Below, one piece after another: positions 5,812-27,242 of a DNA stretch of 39,757 bases. Every line of letters begins with the position of its first letter. Position 1 is the stretch's first letter. Made by a program: the position numbers and the translations under genes. This stretch comes from a virus, in IMG/VR virus record IMGVR_UViG_3300020185_000113, positions 1 to 39,757 of that record, one strand, 5' to 3'. Below the pieces are notes generated by a model. That model saw only the letters and a program-made list of their open reading frames with translations, was not told the origin of the DNA and searched no databases.

Positions 5812-7653
5812 ATGGCATTCTTTACGCCTTCACTGTCTCCAGCTGTAGTAACCCGTGAGATCGACCTCACTGGTATCGTACCTAATGTGGGCACATCGAC
5901 GGGTGTGTTTGTAGGTGATTTCCGCTGGGGTCCAGTTCAAGAACCAACTAGGGTTGATAATGAGGCACGTCTTGTGGGCCTTTTTGCATCGCCTGATACA
6001 AATAACACGGTAGATTTTCACTCTGCCGCATACTTTACAAAGTATTCCAGTGAGCTATTTGTAATCCGTCAGATTGACGATACTGCTAAAAACTCGTTTG
6101 ACAATAACGGTAGCAGATCAGCTCCAACCGTAAAAAATCTTACTCATTTTGATGAGCAAGTAGCTAGCCTGGACGGAGACTCCGCCCTCGATCCTACTGG
6201 CCATAACTTTATTGCAAAGTACCCTGGAGTTTTAGGTAACTCTGTTCAAATTCAAATTTGTCCACCTAGTATAAATGATTCGGCTCTGTCAACAGACAGC
6301 CATGCTGGATTTATCTCTTGGCAATATGGTGAAACTCCAATTGCTTCTACTCTTTCTGCTTCTGGTACTATTCAGCAATTTGACGCTGCACCAGGAACAT
6401 CCGACTACGCTAGAGGCGTTGGCGCTCTTAACGATGAAGTTCATGTAGCTATCATCGATAAGCTGGGCAATATCAGCGGAACCAAAGGTGCAGTACTTGA
6501 AACATACCCCTACGTCTCGCTAGCTAGAAACGCTAAAAACGCTGATGGATCCAGTAACTACATCAAAGATGTAATTAATAATGGTTCTCAGTTTGTTTGG
6601 ATTGCAGATCCTGCAAACATTGACTCTGACTATAGAGTCGCTGGCGCAGGTCAAGATGCCGATTCTGGTGATAACTTTAAACTAACAGCTAACGCTACTT
6701 CGATTAAGACTATCGATCTGGCCGGCGGTGTTGATGTATCTGGTAATCTTACCGCTGCCGAATACGCTACTGCTTTCGATCTGATCGAAGATGTTGATAA
6801 GTATCAAGTCGACTTCTTGATTGCTCCTCCAGTAACCGAGACATCTGGAGATGTTAAAGCTAAAACTATTGTTACTGATCTGGTAGAGATCGCTGGATTG
6901 ACGCGTAAAGACTGTGTCGTTGTAGCTTCTCCTCCAAAGTCTACAGTAATCAATAACACTACTCCAGTAACTTCTACTGTTAACTTTGCAAATAGCTTGA
7001 CGTCCAGCTCGTATCTGTTTATGGATAACAACTATCTGACAGTGTTTGATAAGTACAACGACCAATACATTCAGATTCCGGCCAACTCCTCTACCGCTGG
7101 TATCATGGCACAGTCTGATTTCCAGACAGCTCCATGGTTCTCTCCGGCTGGTCAAAGAAGAGGTGTGTACTTCGGAGTCGTTGGATTGGCTCACACTCCA
7201 AACAAGGCTGAGCGTGACACTCTTTATAGAGCTAACGTCAACCCAATCACTAACCTACCAGGGTTTGGATTAACATTGTTTGGTGATAAGACTTTCCTCA
7301 AGCGTCCATCTGCATTCGATCGTATTAACGTACGTCGTCTGTTTCTGACGCTGGAGAGAGCTATTTCTAGAGCTGCTCAGCAGGTACTCTTTGAATTCAA
7401 CGATGAGTTTACCAGAGCAGAGTTCGTCAATATCGTTGAGCCATTCCTCAGAGAGGTTAAGGGCCGTCGTGGTATCACTGACTTCCGTGTGGTCTGTGAT
7501 GAGACGAACAACACTCCAGAGATTATTGATCGTAACGAATTCATTGCTACTATCTTCATTAAGCCTGCACGTTCTATCAACTACATTACTCTGAACTTTG
7601 TAGCAGTTAGAACCGGCGTAGACTTTGAAGAAGTAGTTGGTCTGTCATTCTAA
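5812..7653 (+). CDS. 18: Tail sheath protein gp18
   Basis: Tail sheath subunit of 613 residues (T4 659). Hexameric rings of gp18 surround the tube and contract at infection. The N-terminus (SPAVVTREIDLTGIVP) and the C-terminal block (GVDFEEVVG, preceded by KPARSINYITLNF and GRRGITDFRVVCDE) are the conserved sheath regions that interlock neighbouring subunits. The central part is more variable and richer in Ser/Asp/Asn. It is followed by the tube gene with its own ribosome binding site, as in T4. Confidence 0.96.
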   Translation: MAFFTPSLSPAVVTREIDLTGIVPNVGTSTGVFVGDFRWGPVQEPTRVDNEARLVGLFASPDTNNTVDFHSAAYFTKYSSELFVIRQIDDTAKNSFDNNGSRSAPTVKNLTHFDEQVASLDGDSALDPTGHNFIAKYPGVLGNSVQIQICPPSINDSALSTDSHAGFISWQYGETPIASTLSASGTIQQFDAAPGTSDYARGVGALNDEVHVAIIDKLGNISGTKGAVLETYPYVSLARNAKNADGSSNYIKDVINNGSQFVWIADPANIDSDYRVAGAGQDADSGDNFKLTANATSIKTIDLAGGVDVSGNLTAAEYATAFDLIEDVDKYQVDFLIAPPVTETSGDVKAKTIVTDLVEIAGLTRKDCVVVASPPKSTVINNTTPVTSTVNFANSLTSSSYLFMDNNYLTVFDKYNDQYIQIPANSSTAGIMAQSDFQTAPWFSPAGQRRGVYFGVVGLAHTPNKAERDTLYRANVNPITNLPGFGLTLFGDKTFLKRPSAFDRINVRRLFLTLERAISRAAQQVLFEFNDEFTRAEFVNIVEPFLREVKGRRGITDFRVVCDETNNTPEIIDRNEFIATIFIKPARSINYITLNFVAVRTGVDFEEVVGLSF

Positions 7654-21312: not shown

Positions 21313-21318
21313 CAATTA

Positions 21319-21343
21319 GGGGGGTTTACAAGCCCCCTTTTTT
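21319..21343 (+). terminator. Intrinsic terminator overlapping a promoter
   Basis: GGGGG (21320-21324) pairs with CCCCC (21333-21337), extended by a U-G and a U-A pair, with loop TACA, followed by six T. It ends the 68-aa gene's transcript. The -35 box of the next promoter lies in its loop and inner stem. Confidence 0.88.
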
Positions 21344-21353
21344 ATTGTATAAT
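21325..21353 (+). promoter_or_regulatory. Promoter of the accessory modification operon
   Basis: TTTACA (21325-21330), 17 bases, TATAAT (21348-21353) is a near-consensus sigma70 promoter. Its -35 element is inside the terminator hairpin of the preceding gene. It would drive the nearly gap-free gene chain 21380-26900. The same boxes and spacing recur at 28302 and 31284. Confidence 0.8.
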
Positions 21354-21379: not shown

Positions 21380-21775
21380 ATGTCTAAAGATTGGGTAAAA
21401 GATATTAATGACATGCATGCTAAGTTTGGTGTACATGAATCTGTTGAAAAGATGGGTGCAACTAAACTAGCATCATATTTGTCTTTCCGACTTAACTTCC
21501 TTAATGAAGAACTTAATGAAACTGGTAAGGCAGCACGGGAAGCTAACCCTGAAGAAATCGTAGACGGCCTAATCGATCTCTGCGTTGTAGCTATTGGTAC
21601 TATGGATGCCTTTGGTATTGACGCCTATAAAGCATGGGACGAAGTTCTTAAGGCTAACATGGCTAAAGAAGTTGGCGTTAAAGACTCACGACCCAATCCA
21701 CTTGGTCTTCCTGATCTGGTTAAGCCAGAAGATTGGGTAGGTCCATCACATGAAAGCAATACGGGAAAATTCTAA
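21380..21775 (+). CDS. MazG-like / phosphoribosyl-ATP pyrophosphatase-like NTP hydrolase
   Basis: All-alpha NTP pyrophosphatase-like protein of 131 residues. Metal-binding acids fit the family pattern: E44 and E47 in NEELNE, and E59 and D62 in EEIVDGLIDL, followed by a helix and the conserved end KDSRPNPLGLPDLVKPEDW. Such enzymes remove pyrophosphate from nucleotides; phage members are thought to shape the nucleotide or alarmone pool. It is first in a coupled operon of nucleotide-related genes, and its stop overlaps the next ATG (TAATG). The substrate cannot be told from sequence. Confidence 0.8.
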   Translation: MSKDWVKDINDMHAKFGVHESVEKMGATKLASYLSFRLNFLNEELNETGKAAREANPEEIVDGLIDLCVVAIGTMDAFGIDAYKAWDEVLKANMAKEVGVKDSRPNPLGLPDLVKPEDWVGPSHESNTGKF

Positions 21776-22311
21776 TGCAATTAGTACATGACCTGGTAAT
21801 CACTCAAGAGTTTATTGATTACCGTAATGAGTATAAGCATAAATTTAAAGCCAACGGAAGACCCGAGTCTGTGTGTTTAATGAATGCAGATTGCCTTCTA
21901 CTTGAGTGGCACCTGACAACAAATGGTCATGCTCAAACATCAAACACTATGTCGTACGACGCAATTATCCCTGGATATAATCGTGTAGAAATTAAATCTG
22001 TATCTAACGGTGGAAGTGTTACGATTGGACAATGGACACGCCGTCAAGATTTCGATAACTATCTTTTCTTTAGATTTGCTGTTCCGCGCACCGCTCCTTT
22101 AGAAATTGGTGATACAGTTACTATTAATATTGTGCAAATTGAAGCTAAAGATTCTGTAGAAATGCGATGCCGAGAATCTAACTTTAATACAAAAGGAAAA
22201 CCGCTTATGTATTATGTTTGGGCACAAGATGGAAAAATCGCTAAGCCTGATGTAAATTCTTCTATGTACAATACAGAAGAATCGGTGTATACTGAACCTA
22301 TGTTTGCATAA
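21775..22311 (+). CDS. Unknown protein, possible PD-(D/E)XK nuclease fold
   Basis: Protein of 178 residues that I do not recognise as a family. Residues 62-74 read D(x9)ExK (YDAIIPGYNRVEIKSVS), and with E44 upstream this resembles the active site of PD-(D/E)XK nucleases. A strand-rich stretch with WTRRQDFDNYLFFRFAVPR follows, also common in such nucleases. It could therefore be a small endonuclease, for instance against unmodified DNA, but the motif alone is weak evidence. It overlaps the MazG-like gene by one base. Confidence 0.7.
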   Translation: MQLVHDLVITQEFIDYRNEYKHKFKANGRPESVCLMNADCLLLEWHLTTNGHAQTSNTMSYDAIIPGYNRVEIKSVSNGGSVTIGQWTRRQDFDNYLFFRFAVPRTAPLEIGDTVTINIVQIEAKDSVEMRCRESNFNTKGKPLMYYVWAQDGKIAKPDVNSSMYNTEESVYTEPMFA

Positions 22312-22321
22312 GGAGATTATT

Positions 22322-22648
22322 GTGACAGATCGTGAATCCGTTAATGTTCTAAAAGAATGTATTGACCTGCAAATTCGTAAAGGTCAAGACTATCAGAACC
22401 CCAACTCTAATGTTACTCAAGCTATGCACTACCGTCGTGGCATTGATTCCCTGCATGACATTATGCAAGGTAAGATGTACCGTGCTCAGTCCATTCTAGA
22501 GAGTAATACCTCTAATCCCAACTTCGAGTCTCTTGAGGATACCTACAAAGACTTGATTAATTACGCATCATTTGCTGTAATGTATATGCGTGGCAAGATG
22601 GATGGCCAAGACCTTGATCGTGATATGTTCAACAAGAAAGTAGACTAA
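22322..22648 (+). CDS. DUF1599 / Nmad1-like protein
   Basis: Helical protein of 108 residues beginning at GTG 22322, six bases after AAGGAG (22310-22315); a TTG at 22304 lies upstream of that site. The pattern LQIRKGQDYQNPN, HYRRGIDSLHDIMQGKMYRA and ESLEDTYKDLINYASFAVMYM resembles DUF1599, also called nucleotide modification associated domain 1, which occurs in phage loci for nucleotide or base modification. Function is unknown even in the family; a nucleotide-binding helical fold is supposed. It is coupled to the HNH gene (TAATG). Confidence 0.65.
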   Translation: MTDRESVNVLKECIDLQIRKGQDYQNPNSNVTQAMHYRRGIDSLHDIMQGKMYRAQSILESNTSNPNFESLEDTYKDLINYASFAVMYMRGKMDGQDLDRDMFNKKVD

Positions 22649-22872
22649 TGGAACTCCCTCCCAAGAAAGGTTTTCACCGGCACCATATTATTCCTAAGTT
22701 CTTGGGAGGGACAGATGTCGCCGATAATCTTGTATATCTAACTCCGTATGACCATGCACAAGAACACAAAAAACTGTTTGAAGAACATGGGCGTAAAGAG
22801 GATGCAGGTGCTTACAATATGATTATGGCACAGAGCGTAACAAAAGATTTTGAAAGGCTAACTACAAAATGA
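22648..22872 (+). CDS. Small HNH-type nuclease-like protein
   Basis: Protein of 74 residues that is essentially an HNH module. H12-H13 in HRHHIIPKFLGG, N27 in DNLVYLTPYDH, and H36 and H40 in DHAQEH follow the HNH beta-beta-alpha layout. There is no DNA-binding extra domain and no Cys zinc knuckle. It could be a free-standing nicking or homing-type nuclease, or a remnant. Start and stop overlap the neighbours (TAATG, ATGA), so it is well integrated into the operon. Confidence 0.8.
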   Translation: MELPPKKGFHRHHIIPKFLGGTDVADNLVYLTPYDHAQEHKKLFEEHGRKEDAGAYNMIMAQSVTKDFERLTTK

Positions 22873-23558
22873 ATGTATCAGATATCCGCCAACACTTTAT
22901 TCAGGCTTTAGCCAATGAGGAGTTCACAGTCGATCGTACCGGCAGCAAAACCATTGAGCTGATCGGGGCTTCTTTCGTTGCAGATGAGCCAGCAATCTTC
23001 GGTACAGTTAACAAAGACTACGTCAATGCTGAGATTGATTGGTATAATGCGATGTCCACGAATATTAATGATATTGAATATGGTGATAAACCACCTAAAG
23101 CATGGCAGATTGCAGCTAATGAATATGGTGAGGTAAATTCTAATTACGGTAAATTAATTTACTCTGATAAGTACCATGATCAGTATGGCCAGGCTTTAGA
23201 TGAATTAGTGGTTTATCCGGATAGCCGTCGTGCATCAATGATCTATACTCGTCCATCTATTTGGTATGAATATAACGAAAATGACAAAAATGATTTTATC
23301 TGTACAAATGTTGTGACATATTATATTCGTAATGGCAAGCTAAATTGTGTTGTACAAATGCGCTCCAATGATGTAGTATATGGATATAAGAATGATTACG
23401 CCTGGCAGCACAATGTTCTCACCGAGCTTACCGATGATTATAACAGGTCTTGTGAACATATGCCAGGAAAGAAAGGTGAAGATATTAAAATAGGTACGAT
23501 CACTTGGCAGGTACAGAACTTGCATGTATATGAAAGACACTTTGATTTGGTAAAATAA
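22869..23558 (+). CDS. Thymidylate synthase-family enzyme, probable dCMP hydroxymethylase
   Basis: Protein of 229 residues of the thymidylate synthase/deoxynucleotide hydroxymethylase family. The catalytic Cys is C145 (FICTNVVTYYIRNGKLNC), the phosphate-binding Arg pair is in SRRASMI (120-121), and MRSNDVVYG follows. At the position where thymidylate synthase has its uracil-selecting Asn (FNIASY), this protein has D176 (KNDYAW), as T4 gp42 does, predicting dCMP as substrate and 5-hydroxymethyl-dCMP as product. It is close in length to T4 gp42 (246). It is coupled to the following genes of unknown or PLP type, which suggests further elaboration of the base. Whether phage DNA carries it is untested. 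Confidence 0.8.
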   Translation: MNVSDIRQHFIQALANEEFTVDRTGSKTIELIGASFVADEPAIFGTVNKDYVNAEIDWYNAMSTNINDIEYGDKPPKAWQIAANEYGEVNSNYGKLIYSDKYHDQYGQALDELVVYPDSRRASMIYTRPSIWYEYNENDKNDFICTNVVTYYIRNGKLNCVVQMRSNDVVYGYKNDYAWQHNVLTELTDDYNRSCEHMPGKKGEDIKIGTITWQVQNLHVYERHFDLVK

Positions 23559-24535
23559 TGGCTGTTATAACTAATCCTATCAGTAATATTCCTGTTAATG
23601 AAAAGTCCCACACCCTAGGATGGTCTAAGGTGTGGGCTTCTCATTTAGACGCTGATATTGATCACAAATGTTCAGCAAATATTCTGAAACATGATATTGT
23701 CTATATTGACTTTGGTGCAAACTACTCAGGTTCTCTAAACCTGTTTGGTGGTGCTAATCAGGAGCTATTTAATCGGTTGAATCTGATCATGCAGTGCAAA
23801 AAAGTCTTATGTCTTGATTGGCCTTTTGAAATCAGTGAATCACTTCGAAAACGTATTGGTGCTAAGACTACATATGAAGGCTTCACTGATGATTGGTTTG
23901 ATAAGCTAGAAGCATTTGAAAAGAATGTGCGGGTTCTAAAACAAGAAGATCGTGTGGTCACTGGTATTACTATGGGTGACAGTCATACAATTGCTTTTAG
24001 CCAAGAATCAGATGCAGTACTTCGTAATGATGGCAAAACCTTGTATGGCGCACTCAAGCTCGGCCTAAACAATATGTTTCGTGGCATGCCTATTAAAGGT
24101 AATATTACTTTATGTTTTGGCTCAATTGACATCCGCCATCATTTTCTCAGAGAAAACGGATTAAATGATAACCTTTCTACTGTTATTGAAACATATATTA
24201 AACAAGGCTCTGAACTAGAAAAAGAATACGGCTGTAATGTATCTTATGCTTATCCTGTTCCGGTAGAATGGGAAGGACGTAAGATTCCTAAGACTGGATT
24301 CTATAAAGGTTCTCCATTTCACGGTTCTATGCAAGAACGTAGGATTATTACAAACAAGTTTATTAGTGAGCTAAATAAGCATAAGGTTAATGTGATTGCA
24401 CCACCAGATGATTGGTACACTATGGACCCTAAAGCATATGCTGAAACGTATATGGAATTTGGTTCTAGCTTTCACATTGCTCCTCCCTATTATCGCCGTG
24501 AAGATTTTGGGGTGACAACAGCAACTTTATTCTAG
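23558..24535 (+). CDS. Unknown protein with SGNH-hydrolase-like motifs
   Basis: Protein of 325 residues with no family I can name firmly. A GDSH motif at 140-143 (GITMGDSHTIAF), a block LCFGSIDIRHHF at 185-196 and a late FGSSFHIAPPYYR recall blocks I, III and V of SGNH/GDSL hydrolases, where Ser, Gly/Asp and His form the active site. The N-terminal 130 residues contain a Rossmann-like strand (VLCLDWPFEI). In the context of a hydroxymethylase and a PLP-like enzyme it could act on a base substituent or a small-molecule donor. It overlaps the hydroxymethylase stop (TAATG). Confidence 0.75.
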   Translation: MAVITNPISNIPVNEKSHTLGWSKVWASHLDADIDHKCSANILKHDIVYIDFGANYSGSLNLFGGANQELFNRLNLIMQCKKVLCLDWPFEISESLRKRIGAKTTYEGFTDDWFDKLEAFEKNVRVLKQEDRVVTGITMGDSHTIAFSQESDAVLRNDGKTLYGALKLGLNNMFRGMPIKGNITLCFGSIDIRHHFLRENGLNDNLSTVIETYIKQGSELEKEYGCNVSYAYPVPVEWEGRKIPKTGFYKGSPFHGSMQERRIITNKFISELNKHKVNVIAPPDDWYTMDPKAYAETYMEFGSSFHIAPPYYRREDFGVTTATLF

Positions 24536-24544
24536 GAATATATT

Positions 24545-25432
24545 ATGTCGCATGACAATCATGTAATTGATGGTGTTAACAAAGACATTCGACCTTTCCC
24601 TTGGTCTAGTCCACAAGAATGCCAAGAATATTATCTGGATATGGCAAAAGACTGGGAAGACCCATATGGTCCTCCTGTGATCAAAGAGCATGAAGGTATT
24701 CGTGTAGTACGTGATGATTATCTGGTAGGCTCAAAGGTTAGGGGTGGCGATTGTTTAATCTCTTCCCTGCCTGAGCACGTGGATACACTGGTGTACGTGC
24801 AGCCACGTACGGGACTGGCAGGTGTTTCTATTCTAGATGTGGCTAAACGCCACAATAAGAAGGTAAAACTATTCATGCCTTCATCTAAACAAATTTCCCT
24901 TCATCAGGCTTGTTGTATTGAACGTGGTGCTGAAACTTCTTTTCACCGTATTGCTGCAATGCCAAACTTGAATAAGATTGCTAAAGAATGGGCAGACGAA
25001 AGACCTAATACATTTTTTATCCCGTTGGGCCTTAAACATGAAATGGTCACTGCTGGTATTGTCAAGACCGCTATGAAGATCGATCCACCTGATCAAGTTT
25101 ATTGTGCAACATCTACTGGTGTCCTGACTCGTGCCCTACAAATCGCCTGGCCGAATACGGAGTTTGTATCTGTTTGTGTGGCACGAAACATGAAAGACGG
25201 TGAGCTAGGTAAGGCAGAAGCCGTCTCAGAACCATTGGCCTTTACTAAGGCAGAACAGTCCCAGAACCTACCAGATTTCCCCGTGATCGACACTTACGAT
25301 GGAAAGGTATGGAAATATATCCCAAAGAATTCTGATAAAGATATTCTATTCTGGAATGTAGGAAAAGAACCTGTACTACAGAATTTAGACATTATAAAAG
25401 AGACTCATTCCTTTAGGGAGTGGGGTGAATGA
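24545..25432 (+). CDS. Fold-type II PLP-dependent enzyme-like protein
   Basis: Protein of 295 residues resembling the tryptophan synthase beta / ACC deaminase superfamily. VRDDYLVGSKVRGGD (residues 55-69) matches the region around the PLP-binding lysine in this family, making K64 the candidate. PRTGLAGVSILDVAKRH corresponds to the substrate-binding loop and helix. ATSTGVLTRALQIAWP (188-203) is in the place of the PLP-phosphate loop. A dedicated PLP enzyme in a phage is unusual. Beside a hydroxymethylase it may install an amino-acid-derived group on a base, but this is inference. Its stop overlaps the next gene (ATGA). Confidence 0.72.
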   Translation: MSHDNHVIDGVNKDIRPFPWSSPQECQEYYLDMAKDWEDPYGPPVIKEHEGIRVVRDDYLVGSKVRGGDCLISSLPEHVDTLVYVQPRTGLAGVSILDVAKRHNKKVKLFMPSSKQISLHQACCIERGAETSFHRIAAMPNLNKIAKEWADERPNTFFIPLGLKHEMVTAGIVKTAMKIDPPDQVYCATSTGVLTRALQIAWPNTEFVSVCVARNMKDGELGKAEAVSEPLAFTKAEQSQNLPDFPVIDTYDGKVWKYIPKNSDKDILFWNVGKEPVLQNLDIIKETHSFREWGE

Positions 25433-26466
25433 AATGGCTAAACGAAGAAGCAATTGATATACTAGTTAATTATTATTATCCTCGTGCTAAATGGCTACAA
25501 CTCAATTGTAACTGGGGAAAACTTCCATACGAAGGTCCTGACGCAGATAGAGAAGTCAACGATCCACTAATGCAGCAGATTGATATCTACGATTGTTATA
25601 CAAGAAATGCCGCAGGGTTTTCTAATGTAGTACAAGACCTAAAGTTCCGTACTAAGACTCCTAAACGGCATCACCAGATTAAAAATTCTGCGTTAGGCCA
25701 AAAGCATTGGGACCTTTGTGATAATTATGTGACTGATCAATGGGACCTTAAGACTTGGTTCTTTGCCTATATGGCACACAGAGCAACAGGTTCAGGTGCA
25801 TCATTTACCAGAGACCATGGATACCGTAATAACTGCGTACATGAATGGGGCGTGATGGAATCTATGGACCAGATGATTGAAAACATCAAGGAGCGTAAAG
25901 CCAATAAGATTCCTACTTTTACGTCTATCGGTAACCAACCGCCAGCTCCACGTAAAGGAGTTAGCGTAGTTGATTACATTACCGAGGAACTACCTGGGCT
26001 TTTGGATAAGTTGATTGATTGGTTACATGTAGGACAGAAAAAGACACACAAGCAAGTTGTGGATTATATGAATGAGTATAATCTAGATCAAGGTCACAAA
26101 CGATTTAATTTTGTTTATGCTGCTTTTTCCTATGATCTAGGCGATTACCATAAAGACTTGGTAGACGATATGTCACATGGCTACTTTGGTAACAATGCAG
26201 TACGTTGTATGCAGAAGCTTTCGTCTGGATATACTACCGATGCTTTCATGGATATTCTGTGTGAGCGAATGGGCGGGGCGCCCAGAGATAACGAGGATGT
26301 TCTCTGTGACTTTGTGCGGTTTGGTCAGAACTACGTTCCAAGAAGCGATGACACATTTAATCATGTATCAAGTGATATAACTAATAACTCCGGATGGGTT
26401 TCAGGCTGGGATCAGCGTCAAGGACATCCACCAGAAAAATCACCTCTAGAGGAATTCATGCTATGA
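25429..26466 (+). CDS. Unknown 345-aa protein of the modification operon
   Basis: Protein of 345 residues, mainly helical, rich in His, Trp, Tyr and Asn (KTPKRHHQIKNSALGQKHWD, GSGASFTRDHGYRNNCVHEW, FVYAAFSYDLGDYHKDLVDD). I do not recognise the family. Its length, helical content and neighbours would fit the helical amino acid:DNA transferase / pyrophosphorylase group described in phage hypermodification loci, but I cannot see a defining motif. It overlaps the PLP-like gene and dCMP deaminase by four bases each, so the proteins are probably made together. Confidence 0.72.
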   Translation: MKWLNEEAIDILVNYYYPRAKWLQLNCNWGKLPYEGPDADREVNDPLMQQIDIYDCYTRNAAGFSNVVQDLKFRTKTPKRHHQIKNSALGQKHWDLCDNYVTDQWDLKTWFFAYMAHRATGSGASFTRDHGYRNNCVHEWGVMESMDQMIENIKERKANKIPTFTSIGNQPPAPRKGVSVVDYITEELPGLLDKLIDWLHVGQKKTHKQVVDYMNEYNLDQGHKRFNFVYAAFSYDLGDYHKDLVDDMSHGYFGNNAVRCMQKLSSGYTTDAFMDILCERMGGAPRDNEDVLCDFVRFGQNYVPRSDDTFNHVSSDITNNSGWVSGWDQRQGHPPEKSPLEEFML

Positions 26467-26900
26467 AGTGGGATGCCCGCTATATGTCTTTGGCCAAGGA
26501 AGTCTCAACCTGGTCGAAAGATCCATCCAGTAAAATCGGTGCAGTTGCTATCGGAGACAAAGGCCAAGTCTTATCACAGGGATACAACGGTTTCCCTCGT
26601 GGTATAGAAGATAGTAAAATAAGATATGATAATCGTCAAACCAAGTACAAATATGTTGTACATGCCGAGATGAATGTGATATATAATGCTACATATAACG
26701 GTGTTTCGTTAAACGGCGCAACTCTATATGTCTACGGTTTGCCTGTCTGTTCTGACTGTGCGAAGGGCATTATTCAGGTTGGCATTAAAAAAGTCGTTGT
26801 ACCTCGTATGGATATTCCGGAAGTCTGGAAAGAATCATGGCAGCGTTCGGTACAGATGTTTGATGAAGCCGACGTAAAATGGAGTATGATTGATTTTTAG
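26463..26900 (+). CDS. cd: dCMP deaminase
   Basis: Zinc-dependent deaminase of 145 residues converting dCMP to dUMP. H68-A69-E70 (VVHAEMN) gives the zinc ligand and catalytic Glu; C96 and C99 (PVCSDC) are the other zinc ligands. The N-terminal DPSSKIGAVAI and GYNGFPRG blocks are typical. I chose ATG 26463, which overlaps the preceding stop as ATGA, rather than upstream in-frame starts inside that gene. With the hydroxymethylase it would control the fate of the dCMP pool. Confidence 0.92.
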   Translation: MKWDARYMSLAKEVSTWSKDPSSKIGAVAIGDKGQVLSQGYNGFPRGIEDSKIRYDNRQTKYKYVVHAEMNVIYNATYNGVSLNGATLYVYGLPVCSDCAKGIIQVGIKKVVVPRMDIPEVWKESWQRSVQMFDEADVKWSMIDF

Positions 26901-26960: not shown

Positions 26961-27242
26961 ATGTACAAATACAGTGAAGATAAAATTATGGACCAGTTAC
27001 AAACCTATATTGATAAGACATATGGTTCACACTATTCCAAACAAAGATTTCAGGCAACTGAGTTTATCGTAGATGCAGGACATGGCATGGGCTTTTGTCT
27101 TGGTAACGTAATGAAGTACGCTCAGCGATATGGAAAGAAAGGTGGACGCAACCGCGATGATCTGATGAAGATCGCCCACTATGCGATCATGGCTATGCAC
27201 ACGCATGATTTAGAAGAAGGAATTGATAATGCAAGCGAATGA
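26961..27242 (+). CDS. DUF3310-family protein
   Basis: Helical protein of 93 residues. The central part GFCLGNVMKYAQRYGKKGGRNRDDLMKIAHYAIMAM is the DUF3310 pattern (glycine-asparagine helix, KYxxRxGKK, then DL-K-A-Y), common in phages as a short stand-alone protein. The family is thought to be related to MazG-like nucleotide-binding helical proteins, but no activity is known to me. Its 3' end overlaps the gp45 start by 14 bases. Confidence 0.78.
   Translation: MYKYSEDKIMDQLQTYIDKTYGSHYSKQRFQATEFIVDAGHGMGFCLGNVMKYAQRYGKKGGRNRDDLMKIAHYAIMAMHTHDLEEGIDNASE

Follow-up and report, generated by a model that had tools for sequence, protein, structure and literature searches.

The DNA analysed here, called the window throughout, is a stretch of 39,757 nucleotides from a T4-like, environmental virus, and it carries, amid a cluster of nucleotide and replication genes, a row of nine open reading frames on the plus strand. 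A preliminary description of this DNA had presented them as nine coupled genes under one near-consensus promoter, and all nine were found as described, tightly packed and with TAATG or ATGA stop/start overlaps at six of the eight junctions. Two starts were corrected: the DUF1599 gene more likely begins with GTG 22322, behind AAGGAG, and the dCMP deaminase gene with ATG 26463, which overlaps the stop codon of the gene for a 345-aa protein (g8), instead of at 26394. As for the promoter, a sigma-70-like site (TTTACA-17-TATAAT, 11/12, a consensus match only) does lie at 21325-21353 on the plus strand, just upstream of 21380 and beside a terminator-like hairpin at 21318-21339. Its being the only one stands less firmly, because the region holds no more promoter-like sites than chance would give (20 found, 21.0 expected from shuffles), and a single promoter driving nine genes is thus plausible rather than proven.

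Profile searches bear out the families that the preliminary description had named for most of the accessory and nucleotide-pool genes. The first gene (21380-21775) codes for a MazG/PRA-PH-like nucleotide pyrophosphohydrolase of 131 aa (PF01503, E=2e-9; phrog_671, 1.5e-22), a common accessory in the loci of relatives, which is likely a nucleotide-pool enzyme and may serve as a dCTPase. The DUF1599/Nmad1-like protein (22322-22648, 108 aa; PF07659, 1.3e-6; phrog_1485, 1e-12) is a frequent accessory, present at 16 of 28 g8 loci, and the dCMP deaminase (26463-26900, 145 aa; PF00383, 1.8e-20; phrog_174, 1.2e-43), a nucleotide-pool partner, is encoded at 27 of the 28. The HNH endonuclease-like protein (22648-22872, 74 aa; PF01844, 4e-6; phrog_655, 1.5e-12) is a sporadic, homing-endonuclease-like passenger found in about 9 of 129 loci. 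A possible PD-(D/E)XK protein had also been listed; this 178-aa product (21775-22311) matched no family in any profile library searched, inspection by eye shows only a D...EIK motif, and its gene, seen in few relatives (8-13 of 129 loci), is probably sporadic and outside the module described below. Both of these genes had been counted as part of the pathway, from which they are dropped here because they are sporadic.

The hydroxymethylase and the conserved module

The fifth gene (22869-23558) codes for a 229-aa, gp42-type dCMP hydroxymethylase (thymidylate-synthase family, 4e-15; phrog_160, 2e-46), whose similarity to gp42 of the T4 group is full-length, with 51-52% identity over 228 aa. The cytosine specificity proposed for it earlier is upheld by the alignment, in which its Asp176 faces D179 of RB51 gp42, the residue known to specify cytosine. 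Asp occupies this position in all 123 module-linked hydroxymethylases, and Asn in two enzymes of 5hmdU phages. The enzyme would hence make 5-hydroxymethyl-dCMP, the substrate of the pathway outlined below, a prediction that these comparisons support well.

The next three genes, for an SGNH-fold protein, a fold-type-II PLP-dependent enzyme (PALP) and g8, form a core module that is conserved over many uncultured phages. Among non-redundant g8 loci with at least 5 kb of flank on each side, 28/28 also carry SGNH, PALP and gp42, and g8 and SGNH accompany PALP at 39/39 PALP loci. The set is kept while the gene order is shuffled, as gp42-dCD-SGNH-PALP-g8, gp42-g8-c22-PALP-SGNH, SGNH-g8-c22-PALP and others, c22 being a further protein that joins the module in many relatives. 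Contigs binned with bacterial genomes repeat the set, with gp42, SGNH, PALP and g8 on L276, L277, L280 and L281. The genes at 23558, 24545 and 25429, whose co-occurrence elsewhere the preliminary description had proposed to check, are thus found together with gp42 in many other phages; tblastn against 50,697 phage records returned no match for g8 or c22.

The core proteins and their relatives

The SGNH-like call made earlier for the 325-aa protein at 23558-24535 (phrog_13881, 7e-82) is confirmed at the level of fold, as its predicted structure (pLDDT 91.7) matches SGNH esterases with Z up to 12.3, mostly over residues 126-320. Ser142 (in GDSH), Gly188 and His306 are invariant. The Asn of the GxND motif is missing, its position being held by Ile190, and so is the Asp of DxxH, where Ser, Lys, Gln or Gly is found; the activity may therefore be unusual or absent. 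The protein is a candidate activating or tailoring acyltransferase or esterase.

The 295-aa product of the following gene (24545-25432) matches the full profile of phrog_7093 (1e-33), and PALP (PF00291) with 1.3e-5 and 25.1 bits, below the Pfam cut-off of 35. Its relatives L126 and L128 pass that cut-off, with 40.6 and 46.3 bits. In 15 of 15 diverse members Lys64 and an STG loop are present, and Lys64 is predicted to carry the PLP Schiff base. The earlier reading as a fold-type-II PLP-like enzyme agrees with all of this, and the same PHROG holds Lydia_87 (1e-160) and CN2 gp11 (1e-156), PLP enzymes whose genes adjoin that of an amino acid:DNA transferase. PALP-fold enzymes catalyse many reactions, among which decarboxylation is one option and no more.

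The helical protein g8 (25429-26466, 345 aa) matched nothing in Pfam, PHROGs or NCBIfam, and a sequence search of the PDB was likewise empty. Its AF2 model (pLDDT 80.9, pTM 0.83) has as its best BFVD match A0A6J5L8T5 (E=2e-13, TM 0.77/0.69), automatically named "amino acid:DNA transferase domain-containing"; A0A6J5MFQ0 and A0A6J5MPF2 are further BFVD hits. Foldseek gave no E below 0.5 against the PDB; a second-look aligner found AGOG (Z 9.1) and PUGT (8z2n; Z 8.9, a modest value for a helical protein, over 202 residues with rmsd 4.0), which together with DUF2419 stand clear of the next match, at Z 4.7. The model thus suggests that g8 folds like amino acid:DNA transferases and AGOG-like glycosylases. 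By sequence, none of 17 diverse g8 proteins reached PF18724 at E<=1 (PaMx11 gp46 matches at 1.6e-27), no member of the g8 and c22 alignments reached PF18723 or PF18724 in hmmscan, and hhalign of g8 with ADDT or with HMUDK_hel was not significant, so that its tie to the transferases rests on the predicted fold and on c22 as go-between.

The protein c22 aligns with HMUDK_hel in hhalign (3.8e-5 over 200 columns; no hmmscan match) and with g8 at 4e-5 to 4e-4, pairings with SGNH or PALP giving 0.06-0.6. An E-x3-C-x3-[KR] motif is shared by 67/67 c22 and 144/145 g8 proteins and by 6 of the 7 HMUDK_hel proteins fetched, and occurs in 8/1248 other proteins. From these sequences c22 appears to be a paralogue of g8 and a relative of the 5hmdU-kinase helical domain. 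A search of the window and of contigs from 12 relatives turned c22 up in one contig only, that of L228; g8 must therefore do without it in the window and in most of the long contigs.

The preliminary description had seen no kinase, and the P-loop kinase of Lydia indeed has no match in nine contigs (72-256 kb) with the module or c22; it is possible that a divergent kinase is at work, or that the kinase lies outside these contig fragments. Glucosylation was considered and is not supported: neither AGT nor TAGT passed the cut-off in the window or in any of nine relatives, 10 records in all, RB51 serving as the positive control; this absence is incomplete because the records are fragments.

A predicted pathway and its rivals

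We consider it probable that the locus directs an amino-acid-derived, post-replicative hypermodification of 5-hydroxymethylcytosine (5hmC) in which activation is non-standard, and the most likely reading is that the enzyme set attaches an amino acid to the hydroxymethylated cytosines of the phage DNA and then trims it. Structure prediction, proposed earlier for the three core proteins, or profile matching places g8 and the PLP enzyme beside known enzymes of amino-acid-type DNA hypermodification. At the start, in a step well supported by homology, the dCMP deaminase, the MazG-like and the DUF1599 proteins would shape the nucleotide pool, and gp42 would make hm5dCMP, whereby C in the phage DNA gives way to 5hmC, as in T4. 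Then g8, whose model predicts an enzyme similar to amino acid:DNA transferases with 5hmC in DNA as its target, would bind or flip this base, accompanied in many relatives by the paralogous c22, and, as its fold and context suggest, would couple an amino acid with the C5 methylene in the manner of the transferases of 5hmdU phages. The PLP enzyme, by family and context, is expected to act on the base-linked amino acid, as the phrog_7093 relatives are in M6/Lydia-like phages. The SGNH protein may take the place of the P-loop kinase and activate the hydroxymethyl as an ester, or may acylate or deacylate the finished side chain. The product would be an amino-acid-derived, 5-substituted-methyl cytosine that takes over from glucosylation in shielding the phage DNA against host nucleases. 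That this is the first amino-acid-derived base on 5hmC, its hydroxymethyl activated without a P-loop kinase by the SGNH protein, through an acyl ester that serves as the leaving group, together with a helical base-flipping partner, is a bolder claim, which we put forward tentatively and regard as doubtful.

The same genes could hypermodify 5hmC with no transfer of an amino acid, if g8 and c22, like the helical part of the 5hmdU kinase, serve solely to bind DNA and flip the base, the SGNH protein esterifies the hydroxymethyl with an acyl or other group, and the donor comes from the PLP enzyme. In favour of this, c22 is closest to HMUDK_hel and not to the transferase family, and the cultured Aeromonas phage 44RR has its SGNH domain fused to an HMUDK_hel-like domain, with gp42 and no detectable PALP. 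This account is nevertheless unlikely, given that the best BFVD folds for g8 include proteins named as amino acid:DNA transferases and that the PLP family is the one found beside such a transferase in Lydia and CN2.

Two further readings depart more widely from hypermodification. PALP-fold enzymes usually belong to amino-acid metabolism and the neighbourhood is one of nucleotide and replication genes, which would suit a cluster for amino acid or cofactor metabolism during host take-over that merely lies in this region, with gp42 yielding plain 5hmC DNA; the strict linkage to gp42 despite shuffled orders and divergent hydroxymethylases, the phrog_7093 partners in 5hmdU loci, the DNA-glycosylase-like fold of g8 and the lack of detected T4-type AGT/TAGT in these phages make it very unlikely. 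Less probable still is a module that removes or edits a modification, for instance as a counter-defence, through an esterase or glycosylase-like action on DNA. It would draw on the resemblance of g8 to AGOG 8-oxoguanine glycosylases, about as good as that to PUGT (Z 9.1 vs 8.9), and on most SGNH proteins being hydrolases; PUGT itself, however, shares the g8 fold, the SGNH protein is missing two of the usual hydrolase residues, Asn and Asp, and a dedicated precursor synthase (gp42) together with PALP argues for synthesis.

Comparison with known systems

Amino-acid-type hypermodification is established for thymine-type bases (5hmdU), and we know of none for cytosine. The 5hmdU loci of the M6/YuA/Lydia/PaMx11 type (Mesyanzhinovviridae) share with the window a thymidylate-synthase-family hydroxymethylase and, in Lydia and CN2, a phrog_7093 enzyme, there adjoining a helical PF18724 transferase; their HMUDK_hel-type helical protein is probably a further likeness. 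They differ in that their hydroxymethylase is a uracil-type enzyme (Asn) and that of the window a cytosine-type one (Asp), in that Lydia has a radical SAM enzyme and the P-loop kinase for which the nine contigs searched gave no match, in that the module always includes an SGNH protein, and in that g8 lies outside PF18724 by sequence.

The 5hmC system of T4 consists of gp42, dCMP deaminase and alpha/beta-glucosyltransferases. T4 and the window have in common the gp42-type hydroxymethylase with Asp, the dCMP deaminase and T4-like replication genes, whereas neither AGT nor TAGT passed the cut-off in the window or in nine larger relatives, SGNH, PALP and g8 being found instead. If the proposed amino-acid chemistry on 5hmC is right, cytosine would become the second base for amino-acid-type chemistry, in a large set of uncultured T4-like environmental phages; it would be explained how 5hmC phages without AGT/TAGT could protect their genomes; SGNH instead of a kinase would represent new activation chemistry; and labelling would gain a set of enzymes specific for 5hmC.

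Further elaboration of cytosine C5 handles has parallels among phages, in arabinosyl-C, carbamoylated 5hmC and 5-carboxymethyl-C, the carbamoylation of 5hmC reportedly having come from MetaGPA. CmoX and CmoY give 5-carboxymethyl-C with glycine amide, CmoY adding the glycine (PMC12783734). As far as the parts of the sources consulted go, these other cytosine hypermodifications employ glycosyl-, carbamoyl- and SAM-derived carboxymethyl transferases and an ATP-dependent amide ligase, and those parts of the MetaGPA (PMC8670742) and CmoX/CmoY (PMC12783734) papers do not mention a PLP enzyme, an SGNH protein or a helical transferase.

The Aeromonas T4-like phages 44RR2.8t, phiAS4, 25, 31 and relatives (ORF233c type) likewise have gp42 with Asp. 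In 44RR, unlike the window, PALP was not found by profile search, and neither was AGT. These phages carry an SGNH domain homologous to that of the window, and its fusion to the HMUDK_hel-like domain, seen in cultured Aeromonas phages such as 44RR, makes part of the proposal open to laboratory testing now.

The gene set and its linkage

The 39.8 kb virus record, coextensive with the window, carries T4-like structural genes (terminase, sheath, portal, and major head protein) and T4-like replication genes (a gp47-like phosphoesterase and a gp45-type sliding clamp), along with a clamp loader and a polymerase, both named by our reading of the sequences from their similarity to relatives. The nine open reading frames of the operon (21380-26900) were confirmed where the preliminary description had placed them, packed with stop/start overlaps. 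The near-consensus promoter proposed there does match the consensus at 11 of 12 positions (21325-21353), but the region holds no more of these sites than chance would give. Immediately past the operon lies a DUF3310 protein (26961-27242; PF11753, 1e-12), frequent in close relatives too.

Protein searches of IMG/VR returned 53 loci with g8, the 345-aa helical protein (25429..26466), and 242 matches to the fold-type-II PLP enzyme, PALP (24545..25432), while the g8 profile gave 190 matches. Co-occurrence, which the preliminary description had proposed to check in other phages, was counted in the 28 non-redundant g8 loci whose flanks extend 5 kb or more each way, partners being sought within 6 kb: the SGNH protein (23558..24535), PALP, and the dCMP hydroxymethylase gp42 (22869..23558) accompany g8 in all 28. 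The dCMP deaminase is present in 27, DUF1599 in 16, and MazG in 12, and the HNH protein, previously counted in the coupled set, in only one, so that its membership is withdrawn. With PALP as the starting point, g8 and SGNH were found in 39/39 loci. Gene orders vary (gp42-dCMP deaminase-SGNH-PALP-g8; gp42-g8-c22-PALP-SGNH; SGNH-g8-c22-PALP, among others, where c22 is a relative of g8), and the linkage is thus more than one ancestral order merely kept. The gene set, its linkage, and the folds or families of the module proteins are established.

Among contigs binned with bacterial genomes, four (L276, L277, L280, L281) hold gp42, SGNH, PALP, and g8, and two (L278, L279) hold g8, c22, PALP, and SGNH, with no gp42 within the stretch examined. 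No tblastn match to g8 or c22 was obtained among 50,697 phage records. Five further contigs (L212, L213, L208, L234, L236) have g8 and c22 adjoining other conserved genes (159, 239, and 216 aa), with no SGNH or PALP within the stretch examined, perhaps a variant pathway. In a subset of phages (L062, L076, L063, and others), genes named by eye as UDP-glucose dehydrogenase-like (c14), epimerase-like (c16), and KdsA-like (c32) stand near the module; they could possibly put an extra sugar on the product, or be unrelated surface-sugar genes.

The hydroxymethylase and the probable entry base

The T4-group dCMP hydroxymethylases are 51-52% identical to gp42 of the window. The position of RB51 D179, a residue known to select cytosine, is Asp in 123/123 module-linked hydroxymethylases, in keeping with the cytosine-specific type originally assigned, and also in three more divergent ones (genomes of L178, L228, and L209), whereas the enzymes of the 5hmdU phages PaMx11 and CN2 have Asn. 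Given this Asp, the pathway would most likely enter through 5hmC. The jumbo-size 256-kb phage contig L228 combines the module with thymidylate synthase-family genes, one bearing the cytosine-type Asp.

The kinase of known hypermodification loci, not visible at the outset, was not found here either: that of phage Lydia matched nothing in nine contigs carrying the module or c22, an absence that is provisional, as these contigs are fragments. Regarding glycosyltransferases, neither AGT nor TAGT exceeded the cut-off in the window and nine contigs (RB51 being positive), which is provisional for the same reason.

Candidate transferases and the PLP enzyme

The AlphaFold2 model of g8, built with 24 sequences, is all-helical (pLDDT 80.9, pTM 0.83). 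Its best match among viral models is A0A6J5L8T5, named "amino acid:DNA transferase domain-containing" (E 2e-13, TM 0.77), with A0A6J5MFQ0 and A0A6J5MPF2 also among the best and 5hmdU-kinase helical domains next (E 4e-3 to 6e-3). In a second look against PDB structures, AGOG glycosylases came first (Z 9.1), followed by PUGT, which is the PaMx11 glycine transferase (Z 8.9), and by DUF2419 (Z 8.2), with the next row well below (Z 4.7). The structure prediction suggested for this initially unrecognized protein thus gives a fold nearest the transferase-named models, AGOG, and PUGT; its sequence matches neither PF18723 (HMUDK_hel, the helical domain of the 5hmdU kinase) nor PF18724 (amino acid:DNA transferase).

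The c22 protein (~330 aa), often adjacent to g8, is by sequence comparison its paralogue. The two align at 4e-5 to 4e-4 in hhalign, versus 0.06-0.6 where SGNH or PALP is one of the pair, single proteins exist that match both profiles, and the motif E-x3-C-x3-[KR] is common to both (67/67 c22, 144/145 g8, and 8/1248 other proteins). In addition, c22 matches the HMUDK_hel alignment (hhalign 3.8e-5 over 200 columns). It is absent from the window and from 11 of 12 long contigs of the window's relatives. Seven contigs (L176-L182, ~6001-6930) have c22 without g8, SGNH, or PALP, in a different constant neighborhood of 146-aa and 209-aa proteins; a thymidylate synthase-family enzyme in the genome of L178 has Asp at the specificity position.

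PALP of the window matches the full profile of phrog_7093 (1e-33), which includes Pseudomonas phage Lydia's PLP enzyme (1e-160) and that of Bordetella phage CN2 (1e-156). In Lydia this gene is flanked directly by those of the amino acid:DNA transferase and of a radical SAM enzyme, a kinase coming next, and in CN2 one small gene separates it from the transferase; Lydia-type loci have been linked to 5-(2-aminoethyl)uridine (PMC11946847). The predicted Schiff-base lysine is conserved in 15/15 diverse members, as is the phosphate loop. Erythrobacter phages offer another DNA-modification setting, a PALP domain within a DNA methyltransferase: in R6L (L126, KY006853) and ZS04 (L127, PV416405) it interrupts the middle of an N4/N6-type enzyme whose N-terminal region is ParB-like, and upstream there is a gene for PAPS reductase. 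In Microcystis phage Mae-JY30 (L128) the domain stands alone, next to two ParB/sulfiredoxin genes.

The SGNH protein and comparison with known systems

The SGNH protein model (pLDDT 91.7) matches SGNH esterases over residues 126-320 (Z about 12). Ser142 and His306 are invariant, but the protein lacks the oxyanion Asn and the DxxH Asp, so that its chemistry may be other than plain hydrolysis of an ester. ORF233c of Aeromonas phage 44RR2.8t (L129:7992-10379) joins the same domain to an HMUDK_hel-like region at the C terminus (PF18723 below the cut-off at E 6e-4; phrog_2396 0.006; 20.8 bits with the alignment built in this analysis). The partner of this helical domain is the SGNH domain in 44RR, whereas in 5hmdU phages such as MP1412 it is a P-loop kinase. 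The gp42 of 44RR carries the Asp, and neither AGT nor PALP was detected in this phage; a cytosine modification not yet described is possible in cultured Aeromonas phages. Besides ORF233c, 38 Aeromonas phage records, from cultured T4-like phages, are listed for this fusion.

Taken together, we consider an amino-acid-type hypermodification of 5hmC to be probable, and the fuller proposal, that SGNH replaces the kinase, possible but less likely than not. In order of falling confidence, 5hmC would be present in phage DNA, g8 (and c22) would transfer an amino acid to it, PALP would then process the product, and SGNH would act in a role that we assign least confidently. The modified cytosines met in our literature searches, which covered little of the primary work on 5hmdU pathways, are glycosylated, carbamoylated, or carboxymethyl/amide, none with this gene set. 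The closest parallel is the M6-type hypermodification of thymidine: the module would work alike, but on a different base. A uracil-type hydroxymethylase and a kinase are defining features of the M6-type system, whereas the module has a cytosine-type hydroxymethylase, the kinase was not found, and g8 falls outside PF18724 by sequence; for these reasons, we regard the module as a variant of the M6-type system.
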